From: Ruminococcus sp. UBA1409
GTDB lineage: Bacteria > Bacillota > Clostridia > Oscillospirales > Ruminococcaceae
NCBI GenBank assembly: GCA_002305045.1
Contig: DBPX01000005.1
Span: 62,001-126,000, forward strand
Direction: 5' to 3'
DNA length: 64,000 bases
A model generated the notes under the pieces. The model was not told the DNA's origin, searched no databases, and worked only from the letters and a program-made list of their open reading frames with translations. Below, one piece after another: positions 31,593 through 35,556 of this stretch; positions within the stretch are counted from its first letter, which is position 1; the number at the start of each line of letters is the position of its first letter. The translations under genes and the position numbers were made by a program.

Positions 31593-31652
31593 AAAAGCAG
31601 TCAGCCGCCCCCGAAAAGGGATGGCTGATATACTGTGAGGAGGGAAGCCGTG

Positions 31653-32891
31653 ATGGCAAATAAAAAAAGTCTGCTGTCTCTTATGCTGGCGGCATTGCTC
31701 CTTCTTTGCTCCTGTGCAAGGCATATCCCTGCAGCCGTCCCGGACGGCGGCATGACTACCTCCCAGGCTCTTGAGGATAATAATGTTCACAAGGACAGCG
31801 TCCCGGACTCAGAAAATCCCCCTCCCGGCAGCATAGAGCCTGACTCCGAAAATCCTCCTCCCGATAAAAAGGAGCCTGACAGCCCTCATAGGGAGGAAGG
31901 GTCCTCATATGAAGCCCATCCTGCTGCCGACGGGGATAATGGGGACGAAAAAAACACCCCTCCCGAGGCTGAATCACCTGCTTCGCAGACGCCCGAGCCT
32001 CCCGATAAGCCCCAGCCCGATACCGAACCTTTAGAGGATATAAGCGGGTTTAGTATGCCGGAGGAGTTCTTTTTAAGGCTTGACGAGCTTCTTTCGGGGT
32101 ATCTTGTGAATCCTCACTGCGAGCCGGATAAAACGCCCTGCGGCTGTCAGCCCGAGCTTGCGGTGGACAACGGGGACGGAACCGTCACTAAGGACAGGAT
32201 AGTCTCCATCTACTTTGAGGACCTTGAAACAAAGTATAGCTTCGAGATAAACCCAGGAGTGCATTATCCTGTTGCAAGCACGGTAAAAATGCCCTTTATA
32301 ACCCTGGCATATCAGATGCTGGAGGACGGCAGGCTCTCCCCTGACACCGTTTTGACCTACGAAAGAAGGCACTATTTCGGCGGGACGGGGGTCATAGTCC
32401 AGGGGGATTTCGGTCAGCAGTACACAGTAGCCCAGCTTTTGACCCTAGCCATAACAAGGAGCGACAATGTAGCCTATGAGATGCTAAAGGATGTCGTCTC
32501 GATGGATGAGATGTTTGATTCCCTCAGACAAAGAGGCGTTTCCCATCCCGAGGATTTAAGAAAGTCCAAGCAGAAAATCTGCCTGCAGTCCGCCGAAGCC
32601 TATTCGCACATCCTAAACGATTACATAGCCTCGGACGGCGAGTATGTAAGCCTTTACCGTCAGGACCTTCTCAATACCAGGCTGAGGCTCATATGCTCCA
32701 GCTATCCTGTTTTGAGAAAGTACGGCTGGACAGGCTTCTCCCTCCACGACATAGCAATCGTCGAGGCTCCCCATCCCTACATACTGATAATCCTTACAAA
32801 CCTAGACGAGGGCACAAAGCAGGACATCGGGCTGTTTGAGAGCATATCCTTGCTTGTCGAGGAGTACAGCCAGAGCCGTGGGGAAGGCTGA
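31653..32891 (+). CDS. Class A beta-lactamase-fold serine hydrolase lipoprotein
   Basis: 412 residues from ATG 31653 (GAGGAGG lies about 9 nt upstream). Lipobox LCSC, then a Pro/Glu/Asp-rich linker with an internal repeat (PDSENPPP twice). The catalytic domain has SxxK (ASTVKMPF), SDN (RSDNVAYEML) and a KxG variant (KYGWTG). It resembles PF13354 enzymes rather than a proven antibiotic-resistance enzyme; cell-wall peptide hydrolysis is equally possible. Confidence 0.75.
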   Translation: MANKKSLLSLMLAALLLLCSCARHIPAAVPDGGMTTSQALEDNNVHKDSVPDSENPPPGSIEPDSENPPPDKKEPDSPHREEGSSYEAHPAADGDNGDEKNTPPEAESPASQTPEPPDKPQPDTEPLEDISGFSMPEEFFLRLDELLSGYLVNPHCEPDKTPCGCQPELAVDNGDGTVTKDRIVSIYFEDLETKYSFEINPGVHYPVASTVKMPFITLAYQMLEDGRLSPDTVLTYERRHYFGGTGVIVQGDFGQQYTVAQLLTLAITRSDNVAYEMLKDVVSMDEMFDSLRQRGVSHPEDLRKSKQKICLQSAEAYSHILNDYIASDGEYVSLYRQDLLNTRLRLICSSYPVLRKYGWTGFSLHDIAIVEAPHPYILIILTNLDEGTKQDIGLFESISLLVEEYSQSRGEG

Positions 32892-32914
32892 CATTAAACT
32901 ATCTTGGAAATAAC

Positions 32915-32944
32915 TAAAAGCCTCGCCTTAGTGCGGGGCTTTTA
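32915..32944 (+). terminator. Terminator of the serine hydrolase gene
   Basis: The stem TAAAAGCCTCGC (32915-32926) / GCGGGGCTTTTA (32933-32944) has one wobble pair and ends in TTTTA. Confidence 0.8.
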
Positions 32945-33004: not shown

Positions 33005-33126
33005 TTACCCCGCCGCCTCGAGCATATTCTCGATAAAGATTCCATATCCTCTTGACGGGTCGCTCAAAAAGACATGGGTCACGGCTCCAACCAGCTTGCC
33101 GTTTTGAAGTATCGGGCTGCCGGACA
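33005..33126 (-). pseudogene. Displaced 3' fragment of spoIVB (122-bp direct repeat)
   Basis: These 122 bases are identical to 34354-34475, the last 40 codons and stop of the intact spoIVB gene. The fragment begins at the codons of the catalytic-Ser motif SGSP and ends exactly at the stop. It has no start and is a leftover of the original gene end, cut off by the cassette at 33127-34353. Confidence 0.9.
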
Positions 33127-33180
33127 GGAGTGATTGTCATTAGGGTCAACATTCCAATCGGCATGAGAAACCATATTCTC

Positions 33181-33209
33181 TTGACAATATCACGGTATAG
33201 TGATATTAT
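33181..33209 (+). promoter_or_regulatory. Promoter of the cassette with operator in the spacer
   Basis: TTGACA at 33181-33186, 17-nt spacer, TATTAT at 33204-33209. The palindrome AATATCAC-GGTATA-GTGATATT (33185-33206) fills the spacer, a typical repressor site. The HTH-bearing DUF2442 protein is the obvious candidate ligand. Confidence 0.8.
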
Positions 33210-33276
33210 ATTCATATAAGAGGGAGGTTGAAATCGTAGGCCGGTTTTATCAAGATTTTATGGAATTGTTATCAGA

Positions 33277-33492
33277 ATGTACTTTTTGCAAAGTGAACAC
33301 AACCCGCCGCATATCCATGCGATTTATAATGAGGATGTTGCGGCCATCGACTTTATGACAGGGGATGTGTTGGAAGGACATCTTCCCCCGAAAGCGTTAA
33401 TGATGGTACGAGAATGGCTGTCCATTCACAAAAATGCTTTACAGGAAATCTGGGAGACACAAGAATTTCGGAAGCTCCCGCCATTAGAATAA
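33277..33492 (+). CDS. DUF4160 protein, start codon apparently lost
   Basis: 71 residues from ATG 33277 (MYFLQSEHNPPHIHAIYNED). The same frame upstream encodes PVLSRFYGIVIR, the conserved N-terminus of the family, beginning at 33241; the codon before it, where homologues have ATG, is AGG at 33238-33240, 11 nt after AGGGAGG. Thus the full protein may lack a start, or use a non-standard one. DUF4160 and DUF2442 proteins are usual partners and have been proposed as a toxin-antitoxin-like pair; activity is unproven. Confidence 0.7.
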   Translation: MYFLQSEHNPPHIHAIYNEDVAAIDFMTGDVLEGHLPPKALMMVREWLSIHKNALQEIWETQEFRKLPPLE

Positions 33493-33504
33493 GGAGGTGC
33501 TTGT

Positions 33505-33939
33505 ATGTTTCATAAAATCAAAAATGTTCATCCGATTTCTGACTTCAAACTGAGCGTCCAGTTCAGCGAGGGCGTCACCAAGGTCTACGACATGAAGCCG
33601 CTGTTTGAGAAGCTACCGGCTTTCCGGCGGCTCCAGGAGGCCCCGGCGCTGTTCGCCTGTGCAAGTGTGGATACAGGCGGCTACGGCATCGTGTGGGATG
33701 ACGAGCTGGACCTGTCCTGCGATGAGCTGTGGGAGAACGGTACCGTTGTTCAAACGCCCTTTGACGGGCTGATTGCCTTTAGCGATGCGACGGAGCTGTG
33801 GGGGTTGAATGAAAGCACCCTAAGAAAAGCGATTTCCTACGGGAAACTGGTCAATGGTATAGATGTTTGTAAGTTTGGGAAGCAATGGGTGGTTTCCATT
33901 GATGCTATGAAACGGGAATATGGGACGGCTTCAAAATGA
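33505..33939 (+). CDS. DUF2442 protein fused to a helix-turn-helix domain
   Basis: 144 residues. Residues 1-90 are DUF2442 (VHPISDFKLSVQFSEGVTKVYDMKPL, GIVWDDELDLSCDELWENG). Residues 90-140 (LIAFSDATELWGLNESTLRKAISYGKL...FGKQWVVSIDAM) resemble an excisionase-like HTH. The ribosome site AAGGAGG lies 7 nt upstream, and the gene is 12 nt after DUF4160. It probably acts as antitoxin and autorepressor at 33185-33206. The first half is more GC-rich than the rest of the cassette. Confidence 0.75.
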   Translation: MFHKIKNVHPISDFKLSVQFSEGVTKVYDMKPLFEKLPAFRRLQEAPALFACASVDTGGYGIVWDDELDLSCDELWENGTVVQTPFDGLIAFSDATELWGLNESTLRKAISYGKLVNGIDVCKFGKQWVVSIDAMKREYGTASK

Positions 33940-33980
33940 AAAAGCAGACAAATCGGGATTTGACAAAGGAATGTGATTGT

Positions 33981-34292
33981 ATGCAAAAAGTTTTATTTTA
34001 CTTGCCCGCTGTGATATATACGATAGCTGTAATTGCTTTTAACATAATCCTCAAGACACTCTCTCCCTTATGGTATGCTTGGGTTGTTTTATTATGGCTT
34101 GGTGGTTTTCTGCTCAACAAAAGAAAAGTATGGGGATGTCTATTGGGGCTACTCCCTGCTATTCATCTTCTGCATATGAGCACACAATTCACAGGTCAAG
34201 CTATCAACATTGAAATGCCATTAGGAATTATTACGGCGTTGTATGTGATTGTTTGTACCTTTTGGGTTTGGAAGAAAGGATCATCCAATTAA
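33981..34292 (+). CDS. Small membrane protein of the cassette
   Basis: 103 residues from ATG 33981 (AAAGGA about 10 nt upstream); an ATG at 33936 overlapping the DUF2442 stop is also possible. Four hydrophobic segments (YLPAVIYTIAVIAFNIIL, WYAWVVLLWLGGFLL, WGCLLGLLPAIHLL, LGIITALYVIVCTFWVW). No family is recognised. Co-directional and adjacent to the DUF4160/DUF2442 pair. Confidence 0.6.
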   Translation: MQKVLFYLPAVIYTIAVIAFNIILKTLSPLWYAWVVLLWLGGFLLNKRKVWGCLLGLLPAIHLLHMSTQFTGQAINIEMPLGIITALYVIVCTFWVWKKGSSN

Positions 34293-34314
34293 GCCAATTC
34301 CAGTTTATCAAGCC

Positions 34315-34346
34315 GGCCCTCCCGGAGAAAACTCCCCGGGAGGGCC
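34315..34346. terminator. Hairpin at the cassette end
   Basis: A perfect 11-bp stem GGCCCTCCCGG (34315-34325) / CCGGGAGGGCC (34336-34346). It lies between the cassette's last gene and the spoIVB stop, so it may end transcription from both sides. There is no T-run on either strand. Confidence 0.5.
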
Positions 34347-34353
34347 GCTCCGT

Positions 34354-35556
34354 TTACCCCGCCGCCTCGAGCATATTCTCGATAAAGATTCCATATCCTC
34401 TTGACGGGTCGCTCAAAAAGACATGGGTCACGGCTCCAACCAGCTTGCCGTTTTGAAGTATCGGGCTGCCGGACATTCCCTGGACAATTCCGCCGGTCTG
34501 GGACAAAAGCTCCGGGTCGGTGACTCTTATTACCAGGTTTTTGGTGCCCAGGCCGTCGCTGAGGCTTATCCTCTCGATTTCGACCTCATACTCCTTCGGG
34601 GTGTTGCCGGATATCGTGGTGAGGATGCTTGCCTTGCCCTCGCAGACCTCCTGACGGAAGGCGATTGGCACAGCCTCGCCGTGCGGGGGATAGGTCATGA
34701 CGCCGAAAACTCCCTGCTCGCAGTTTTTGGTGACGCTTCCTGCCGCCAGCCCGGACACAAAGGTCCCGAAAAGCTCTCCGGGACAGCCACGCTCGCCTCT
34801 TTCGTAGCCGGTTACGGTGACATCCACTATCTCCCCGGAGCCTAGAGGGAGTGTCCTTTGGGTGTCGCAGTCGGATATCGGGTGACCCAGCGCTCCGTAG
34901 CAGCCGGTTTTAGGGTCTATATAGGTAAGCGTCCCCACGCCTGCCGAGCTGTCCCTAATCCAGATTCCTCCCTTGAAGCTGCCGTCCGCCTGTGACTGCA
35001 CCGGGACAAGGGAGGTCTCATAGGAATCCCTGCCTCTTTGCACCGTGAGAGCTATCGGCTCTCCGCCCGATTCGCTTATTATCTGGGACAGCCTTGCCGA
35101 GGAGCTAAGACGCTCTCCGTTTGCGCTGACTATATTGTCCCCGGCGACCAGTCCGGCGTCCTTAGCTGGGCAGACACCCTCTAGGACCTCCTGAAGCTTC
35201 ACCACCATAACGCCGTCTGTAAGAAATTTAATCCCTATCGGACTCCCTCCAGGGATGAGTGAGGGAGCCTTTGCGCTTTTAAGCTCGGCGTCCTTTATGG
35301 GCACCGTACCCCAGAGCTTTAGCTCGCCGCTGCAAAGGCTGTCGCCGTTTGCTGACGCAAGAACGGAGTCCTCGCTCCGATACAGCCTGACATCCAAAAG
35401 ACAGCCCAGCCTTGAGTACCCGGCGGACATCCCCTCCGTGAGATAGTAGCTGTCGGGGAGGCTGTGGCTGTAGAAGCCTACAATCGCCATGACCGCAAGA
35501 GCCGCTGTCAGAAATACGGCGGCTGTCCCCTTTATTAGCCTTGACACTCTTTTCAT
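34354..35556 (-). CDS. spoIVB: SpoIVB peptidase
   Basis: 400 residues. An N-terminal membrane anchor (about 9-30), a PDZ domain near 115-190 (GVMVVKLQEVLEGVCPAKDAGLVAGDNIVSANGE) and the S55 peptidase domain with GALGHPISD (catalytic His near 245) and [12 protein letters not shown] (catalytic Ser near 363). In sporulation it is secreted from the forespore and triggers SpoIVFA cleavage and sigma-K activation. The last 122 nt are one arm of the direct repeat made by the cassette insertion; the frame is intact. Confidence 0.93.
   Translation of the reverse strand: MKRVSRLIKGTAAVFLTAALAVMAIVGFYSHSLPDSYYLTEGMSAGYSRLGCLLDVRLYRSEDSVLASANGDSLCSGELKLWGTVPIKDAELKSAKAPSLIPGGSPIGIKFLTDGVMVVKLQEVLEGVCPAKDAGLVAGDNIVSANGERLSSSARLSQIISESGGEPIALTVQRGRDSYETSLVPVQSQADGSFKGGIWIRDSSAGVGTLTYIDPKTGCYGALGHPISDCDTQRTLPLGSGEIVDVTVTGYERGERGCPGELFGTFVSGLAAGSVTKNCEQGVFGVMTYPPHGEAVPIAFRQEVCEGKASILTTISGNTPKEYEVEIERISLSDGLGTKNLVIRVTDPELLSQTGGIVQGMSGSPILQNGKLVGAVTHVFLSDPSRGYGIFIENMLEAAG

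Follow-up and report, generated by a model that had tools for sequence, protein, structure and literature searches.

The window analysed here, a stretch of 64,000 nucleotides from Ruminococcus sp. UBA1409 (GenBank assembly GCA_002305045.1, contig DBPX01000005.1, positions 62,001 to 126,000), was found to carry a small cassette at the 3' end of the sporulation gene spoIVB, followed by a second copy of that gene end. With a probability of about 0.8, the arrangement is read as a cis-mobilisable cassette left at this position by a serine-recombinase element, which we infer to have dropped it off. That the cassette is site-specific is almost certain, and a family of three tandem large serine recombinases is very probably the enzyme acting at the spoIVB site. 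The comparisons below place the core of the site at the TG of the Met codon that immediately precedes the catalytic Ser.

A repeated spoIVB end flanks the cassette

Comparison of the window with itself identified an exact repeat of 122 bp (33005–33126 and 34354–34475; 122/122 identity), which cannot be a product of chance. Read in the sense of spoIVB, which lies on the minus strand, the repeat comprises TG followed by the final 120 nt of spoIVB, running from the catalytic-Ser codon through the stop codon. Both copies begin at the stop codon when read on the forward strand, and the repeat start in gene sense falls within the ATG of GM|SGSP, which we take to be the S55 active-site motif. The upper copy closes an intact gene for a SpoIVB of 400 amino acids (aa) (Peptidase_S55, E 3.7e-80; 370 bits for the NCBIfam SpoIVB equivalog, cut-off 305), and the lower copy has no gene body ahead of it. 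The 1227 bp between them contain three open reading frames (ORFs) on the plus strand, for a DUF4160 protein, a DUF2442 protein with HTH_59 and a small membrane protein. An earlier note on this DNA had described both the 122-bp direct repeat at the spoIVB stop and the 1227-bp opposite-strand cassette, and both were recovered. The cross-genome comparison lends good support to its proposal that a cassette lacking a recombinase attached at the spoIVB codons around the catalytic Ser, and the cassette does leave spoIVB with a complete 3' end.

In gene sense, the order within 33005–34475 is the spoIVB body, TG, the spoIVB 3' end, the cargo, a half-site termed P, TG and the second, displaced 3' end. 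Half-site P reads TGTTGACCCTAATGACAATCACTC and is followed by NTG, with TGTTG starting 24 nt from that codon. The window's genome is fragmentary, with 1.74 Mb in 22 contigs at 88.5% completeness, and has one copy of this junction motif at ≤3 mismatches.

Displaced spoIVB ends in other Clostridia

A SpoIVB search of 60 relatives returned fragments as well as full genes. The fragments start at residue 361 in both G051 and the genome of the window, and at residue 376–377 in G051 and G026 (G denotes a genome and L a locus). G026 belongs to the genus of the window, and its second spoIVB 3' end begins at another codon. The earlier note would have been contradicted if all relatives carried both copies with diverged sequence; among 31 genomes of the genus, the window's own included, a second 3' end at the Met/Ser site was found only in that of the window (G000; E≤0.001).

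Displaced ends in other Clostridia are cut at the same Met codon and preceded by a half-site resembling TGTTGTCCC...CACTC. In a first set, TGTTGTCCC was present (≤2 mismatches) before 37 of 44 displaced ends, and 35 of the 37 matches lie exactly 24 nt before NTG; the chance of such a match is about 0.03 per junction, position ignored. All 24 complete spoIVB genes in the first-set listing have ATG at the site and lack the motif (fewest mismatches 3). Because circularity was to be avoided, a second set of genomes outside the window's order was picked by SpoIVB homology alone, with the motif unused, from a class sample of 391 genomes. Two or more C-terminal SpoIVB matches were found in 23 of the 391 (the window's own genome included), and 18 of the 22 others have displaced ends; G182, G291, G356 and G428 were set aside, as their extra matches are weak or lie within long open frames. 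The motif was located at exactly 24 nt in all 25 junctions with sufficient upstream sequence, copies below 35 bits being omitted and copies classed FULL or B standing outside the 25.

The codon at the displaced ends (n=40) is GTG in 30 cases, CTG in 7, ATG in 2 and TTG in 1, and therefore only TG is shared. Unclean ends in L188 (two), L201 and L223 were excluded from this count and from the interval table and retained in the 37/44. When the strict half-site was searched at ≤3 mismatches, the only one of the 391 class genomes retrieved was the window's own, and the 18 others with displaced ends carry variant half-sites. The strict pattern gave no match in viral contigs, nor did two relaxed patterns (exact and narrow), and a degenerate pattern retrieved L157.

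Among ten SpoIVB matches in a phage collection, a displaced end alone was present only in MT836038.1. The nine others, together with the two plasmid matches compared (H11 and H13, of three), were rejected, as SpoIVB similarity extends far past the 3' end; the third plasmid match, H12, is annotated as spoIVB. A 13.7-kb circular 'plasmid' of Sedimentibacter (NZ_CP142397.1; L156) corresponds to the chromosomal recN-spoIVB-spo0A region and is probably an assembly artefact.

A second attachment site was recognised in spoIVB at AVT|HV (L113, L114, L208, L215–L217 and L219; genomes G051, G026, G560, G622, G454 and G572). In G622, spoIVB is cut short at this position by an element of 27.5 kb that has a single large serine recombinase and arms GGTATCAT and ATGATACC, and in G026 and G454 small cassettes at the second site lie behind a complete spoIVB. 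Palindromes of 50–52 nt that resemble an attP, with arms like TGTTGTCCC...GGGACAACA, were also found shortly 3' of complete spoIVB stops in L171, L176 and L179 (genomes G788, G671 and G600, with two in G600). In Faecalicatena contorta, a spoIVB 3' end is joined to the ATG of a RhuM-like gene (L032:5478–5936), as if recombined at TG outside the usual half-site.

Serine recombinase trios and split spoIVB genes

The search for recombinases beside spoIVB that the earlier note had called for identified three tandem large serine recombinase genes (a trio) adjoining displaced ends at six loci (L149, L157, L204, L213, L252 and L261). At these partner loci, and not in the window cassette, the three genes lie in one orientation at the end of the element beside the target. 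L204 is in G680 and L213 in G715, where the trio is ~1 kb from the displaced end. The first trio gene of L149 (L149:1007–2425; MT836038.1) gave no Resolvase domain match, and the other two have one. Subunits of L204 and L213 match those of L157 or L149 by position, with 45–58% identity, whereas different positions share 22–31% identity with each other over long alignments.

At E≤1e-100, the 394 genomes of the window's order yielded third-subunit relatives in G680 and G715 only (at most three candidates scored per genome), in both cases at spoIVB. Of 18 relatives in viral contigs, 3 (L157, L252 and L261) have a spoIVB end. Eight close relatives from IMG/VR (L253–L260; third subunit 52–57% identical) are without one, four of these contigs ending within 175 nt of the trio, and the remaining 7 are more distant. 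Backbone genes recognised by Pfam encode ParA in G715 and, in G798, from whose record L252 is taken, an actin-like protein, RecD2 and YqaJ.

In G680, G715, G522 and G457, the 5' part of spoIVB ends at the same ATG, the gene being split between the Met and catalytic-Ser codons. An inverted half-site, P', adjoins this 5' part and P precedes the displaced end, with 17–21 of 24 bases shared between P and P'. The two junctions are on different contigs in all four genomes, and a trio was seen in G680 and G715 only. P-TG-P' is taken to be the attP of one element, with TG as its core and both junctions bounding it, and on this reading trio elements would disrupt spoIVB. Given the split genes, the question arises whether excision is linked to sporulation. 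The trio recombinases offer an integration tool that can be tested, and the half-site with its displaced end provides a simple search handle.

Distribution and cargo of docked cassettes

A displaced end with a half-site is present in at least 25 of the 394 order genomes (in G557 at three mismatches), 12 of which have the intact spoIVB and the displaced end on one contig. The figure of 25 is a lower bound, as weaker matches were unlisted; the re-query covered 48 genomes (picked by eye for several matches, plus G026), and second matches in G022 and G009 were outside it. In the class sample, displaced ends were found in 19 of 391 genomes, 18 outside the window's order and the window's own. Bounded intervals range from 828 to 4938 bp in the order (n=23) and from 1.2 to 13.2 kb in the class sample (n=19), and no trio recombinase was detected in the loci of these intervals (tblastn, E≤1e-8). 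Up to three displaced ends occur per contig, as on one contig of F. contorta ET55. The earlier note had suggested looking for the same junction with other cargo, and the half-site and its spacing do recur at spoIVB with unrelated cargo.

Pfam analysis of 30 of the 62 listed cargo ORFs (12 loci) gave matches for 24. These include regulators of the AraC, LysR and IclR families, and a set in which a dehydrogenase and an aminotransferase-fold enzyme, read as putative Tdh and KBL, accompany a glycine transporter. A glycyl radical enzyme with a radical-SAM activase, GH32, GH5 and GH95 proteins, a sugar kinase, a short-chain dehydrogenase/reductase and an M20 peptidase were found among others. Recombinase, transposase and integrative and conjugative element (ICE) genes were all absent from the 30 proteins. 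Glycyl radical enzymes and/or activase-like proteins recur in spoIVB cassettes from several families (L112, L191, L341, L344, L345, L349 and L356), often with AraC- or IclR-like regulators (by Pfam for L112 only). The cargo frequently encodes catabolic functions (glycyl radical, amino-acid and sugar enzymes) together with a dedicated regulator, and could thus account for contrasts in metabolism among related strains.

A four-gene threonine cassette is common to G051, which is in the window's order, and G418, which belongs to another order and family of the same class (protein identity 83–97%). The shared DNA block of 4.6 kb (85.5% identity) starts ~20 nt before the core, and the 600 nt ahead of the core are 69.6% identical. 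Tentatively, spoIVB could be a docking site that regenerates itself in a large part of the class Clostridia, forming an integron-like cassette system with serine recombinases and with a replacement gene end as half-site. Small regulated metabolic and toxin-antitoxin cassettes would then pass between families and orders and build up in arrays next to an intact protease. The docked cassettes point to a route by which anaerobes exchange genes that has drawn little notice, with the catalytic-site codons of a sporulation gene as the landing pad.

Original end, proposed mechanism and alternatives

In relatives with an empty site (e.g. L119, L121, L122, L128, L130, L139 and L140), spo0A is the next gene after complete spoIVB. 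It follows the displaced end in L204/G680 and L210/G522 (Met/Ser site) and in L215/G622 (second site), indicating that in these three genomes the displaced end is host-derived and the insertion lies ahead of it. In F. contorta, an empty spoIVB is next to spo0A, and the displaced ends are on another contig. The window's genus relatives have other genes downstream of spoIVB, and the gene to the left of the cassette (31635–32891) had no match beside spoIVB in 29 genus loci (~1.5 kb downstream) or in 27 other relatives. As the empty site of the window could not be demonstrated from this flank, spo0A synteny in other genomes was used; on that basis the original end of the window is probably the displaced copy (33005–33126), and the copy at 34354–34475 would be the element-borne end.

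In the proposed mechanism, the cassette would ride as a passenger on a trio element, T, in the order P-TG-(3' end e1)-cargo, and T with its passenger would integrate by attP x attB recombination into B-TG-B'. The locus would then read B-P', T, P-B'(e1), cargo, P-B'(e0). Were T alone to excise between attL (B-P') and the nearer P-TG-(3' end) site, the remainder would be B-B'(e1), cargo, P-B'(e0), which is the arrangement of the window; the end of the gene would have come with the cassette, and the original end would be displaced downstream, behind P. The restored gene would again be a complete attB, open to further rounds that build arrays with the newest cassette beside the gene, and exit of T via a farther site would collect cassettes. 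This scheme would account for the arrays and the complete gene, for the half-site at displaced ends and for the absence of both recombinase and P'. It would need ordinary serine-integrase reactions only, amounting to accretion combined with cis-mobilisation. Passenger drop-off is considered a somewhat likelier route than the others.

Several observations weigh against this reading. No mosaic signal marks the restored end as foreign, the relatives being too distant; the two ends in the window are identical, and their similarity to the genus relatives is about the same as that of the preceding part of the gene. Between G051 and G418 the restored end is 81.7% identical, between the values for cargo (85.5%) and upstream sequence (68–70%). 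No close trio was found in the window's genome (88.5% complete), where the best serine recombinase (E 4.6e-58) is on another contig. An intermediate with trio, displaced end, cargo and second displaced end was unseen in the six trio loci, which mostly have little sequence past the displaced end. The 7 first-set junctions without the motif comprise 2 with three mismatches at the right spacing, 1 RhuM-like join and 4 unclean ends. Displaced copies that start at the second spoIVB site also exist, and the attP-like palindromes after complete spoIVB stops, which could be either terminators or embedded attP sites, are unexplained by the model.

The cassettes could instead be free, integron-like circles carrying P-TG-(3' end), which trans-acting recombinases insert at the spoIVB ATG. 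The products would equal the substrates, the site would regenerate and no larger element would be ridden. Such circles would suit the excess of cassettes over trios (25 against 2 of the 394 order genomes), the mostly small size of the 23 intervals and the occurrence of up to three displaced ends per contig. However, recombination of attB with P-B' would be required, and ordinary large serine integrases are not known to recombine these sites unaided. No circular cassette contig was found among viral contigs, where the relaxed patterns, exact and narrow, gave no match. This route is considered unlikely.

The direct repeat flanking the cargo and the 100% identity of its copies would equally be expected of a Campbell-type event, in which a circle carrying a spoIVB 3' end entered by a single homologous crossover and the half-site is incidental. 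The earlier note had offered this as an alternative, but a single crossover gives no fixed junction, whereas the same motif recurs at nearly constant spacing with unrelated cargo, and pairs of ends within single other genomes differ (61–97% identity, spurious row L197:701 excluded); this explanation is thus highly improbable. Nor is an artefact of the metagenome bin, whether from strain variants or from a circle opened out at the repeat, at all likely. The genome is fragmentary, the assembly comes without reads and several other contigs break at the same repeat, but the same architecture is present on long contigs of G760 (433 kb) and G138 (246 kb), and three displaced ends lie on one contig in the assembly of a named strain, F. 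contorta ET55. Its presence in other genomes makes an assembly error at the window locus unlikely.

Relation to known systems

The staphylococcal cassette chromosome (SCC) uses large serine recombinases (ccrA/ccrB/ccrC) to insert at the end of a conserved gene, rlmH, and forms composite arrays that include elements without a recombinase. The spoIVB cassettes resemble SCC in these three respects, the recombinase type, insertion at a gene end and arrays with recombinase-free members. They differ in the site, which is spoIVB and not rlmH, and the best Ccr score of the L157 trio (CcrB, 100.9 bits) is well below the NCBIfam cut-off of 900. Skin-like elements split sporulation genes, as the trio and second-site elements split spoIVB, whereas the window cassette leaves the gene complete. 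The family recombinase of integrons is the tyrosine recombinase IntI, while those at the spoIVB site are of serine type (Resolvase/Recombinase); the window's genome was not scanned for IntI.

For islands at ssrA in Dehalococcoides, 16 with and 15 without an integration module, accretion is suggested in the text available of PMC3146451. Like the spoIVB cassettes, they lie in tandem behind a conserved gene, with displaced gene ends as boundaries and a serine recombinase at the edge. They differ in having a transfer-messenger RNA target, 20-bp repeats and a CcrB-like large recombinase with a small one (PMC3146451), where the spoIVB system has a protein-coding catalytic site, repeated ends of ~120 nt, a trio of large recombinases and a conserved half-site. 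The spoIVB cassettes are also mostly 1–5 kb and occur in several Clostridia families.

Streptococcal cis-mobilisable elements (CIMEs) are likewise recombinase-less segments between att sites, moved in cis by an adjacent inserting element, according to the portion consulted of PMC7563491. The mechanism proposed above follows the accretion logic set out there. The window cassette, with its three cargo ORFs, is similarly without recombination or conjugation genes of its own. However, CIMEs are described there as decayed ICEs or integrative and mobilisable elements that keep their att sites, while the spoIVB cargo scanned consists of small operons without ICE remnants. One flank of the spoIVB cassette is also a regenerated attB and not attL. 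By sequence likeness, its P-TG-B' side resembles the junction beside trios, and the other side is attB-like.

ICEs with a serine-integrase triplet share with the trio elements three co-oriented genes at the target-proximal end of the element, subunits that cluster by triplet position, and disruption of the gene on insertion, for streptococcal targets (PMC4701971). Their targets are mutT, traG and hsdM, with repeats of 2–8 bp, and arrays of recombinase-less cassettes with restored gene ends are not described in the sections available of PMC4701971. A literature search found no paper joining spoIVB with a serine recombinase or with a prophage insertion site, and the titles and abstract openings returned mention no insertion site in spoIVB. 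Tandem recombinase-less islands at a serine-recombinase site are known; the literature searched did not yield a spoIVB target that combines a repeated coding end, a trio and small metabolic cassettes.

The cargo and features of the window

The adjacent DUF4160 and DUF2442 proteins are predicted from their families to form a DhiTA-like toxin-antitoxin module. This domain pair is listed in a table as the DhiTA toxin-antitoxin pair of Dickeya (PMC8198452) and is presumed to be a toxin-antitoxin pair on a Thermus plasmid in the text available of PMC12724237. The window cargo differs from DhiTA in the additional HTH_59 of the antitoxin and in a toxin ORF shortened at its start. The latter is 13 residues shorter than its 84-aa counterpart in L033 and scores 58.7 bits with NCBIfam DhiT, under the cut-off of 100, covering positions 14–82 of 84 in the profile; the shortened toxin may be weakened. 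The match of the membrane protein to 2TM is weak (E 0.0085) and under that model's cut-off.

Of 217 confirmed loci of DUF2442 homologues, 80 were examined. The two closest homologues among these (92 and 90%), in F. contorta ET55 and a Robinsoniella metagenome-assembled genome, both adjoin displaced spoIVB ends. No spoIVB end was found within the available flanking sequence of the remaining 78, indicating a common cargo family of which only the nearest members sit at spoIVB. The window cassette is 84% identical in DNA sequence to the Faecalicatena and Robinsoniella cassettes over 926 bp, half-site and displaced end included and the membrane protein ORF outside the alignable stretch, whereas SpoIVB of the window shares only 42% identity with that of the Robinsoniella genome. 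A DUF2442 protein 78% identical to that of the window is encoded in L055 (JAFQBW010000056.1), which is labelled Methanocorpusculum and likely reflects binning contamination.

Table 1. Features at the spoIVB locus of the window
Feature	Coordinates	Strand	Basis
Displaced spoIVB 3' end, TG core 33125–33126	33005..33126	-	Repeat identity, SpoIVB search
Conserved half-site P, TGTTGACCCTAATGACAATCACTC in gene sense, immediately ahead of NTG at the displaced end	33128..33151	-	
Promoter-like site ahead of the cargo operon	33181..33209	+	11/12 matches
DUF4160 protein, DhiT-like toxin (role by family), 71 aa	33277..33492	+	Pfam, NCBIfam
DUF2442 + HTH_59 protein, DhiA-like antitoxin (role by family)	33505..33939	+	Pfam
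Membrane protein ORF, 118 aa, cargo	33936..34292	+	2TM, weak
G+C-rich terminator-like hairpin directly 3' of the spoIVB stop	34312..34348	-	By eye; absent from scan
Gene-proximal repeat copy, TG core 34474–34475 (in ATG 34474–34476) plus 120 nt to the stop	34354..34475	-	
spoIVB, complete and open, last 122 nt being the cassette-side repeat copy	34354..35556	-	Peptidase_S55, NCBIfam

The earlier note had described the cassette as bearing a promoter. A plus-strand site was located ahead of the operon (Table 1), but promoter-like sites are not enriched in the scanned region, with 2 observed against a mean of 2.6 in shuffled sequences. Further left, a match to Rfam isrJ at 32881–32942 is below threshold (28.9 bits, gathering value 37) and is probably a mere terminator-like hairpin.

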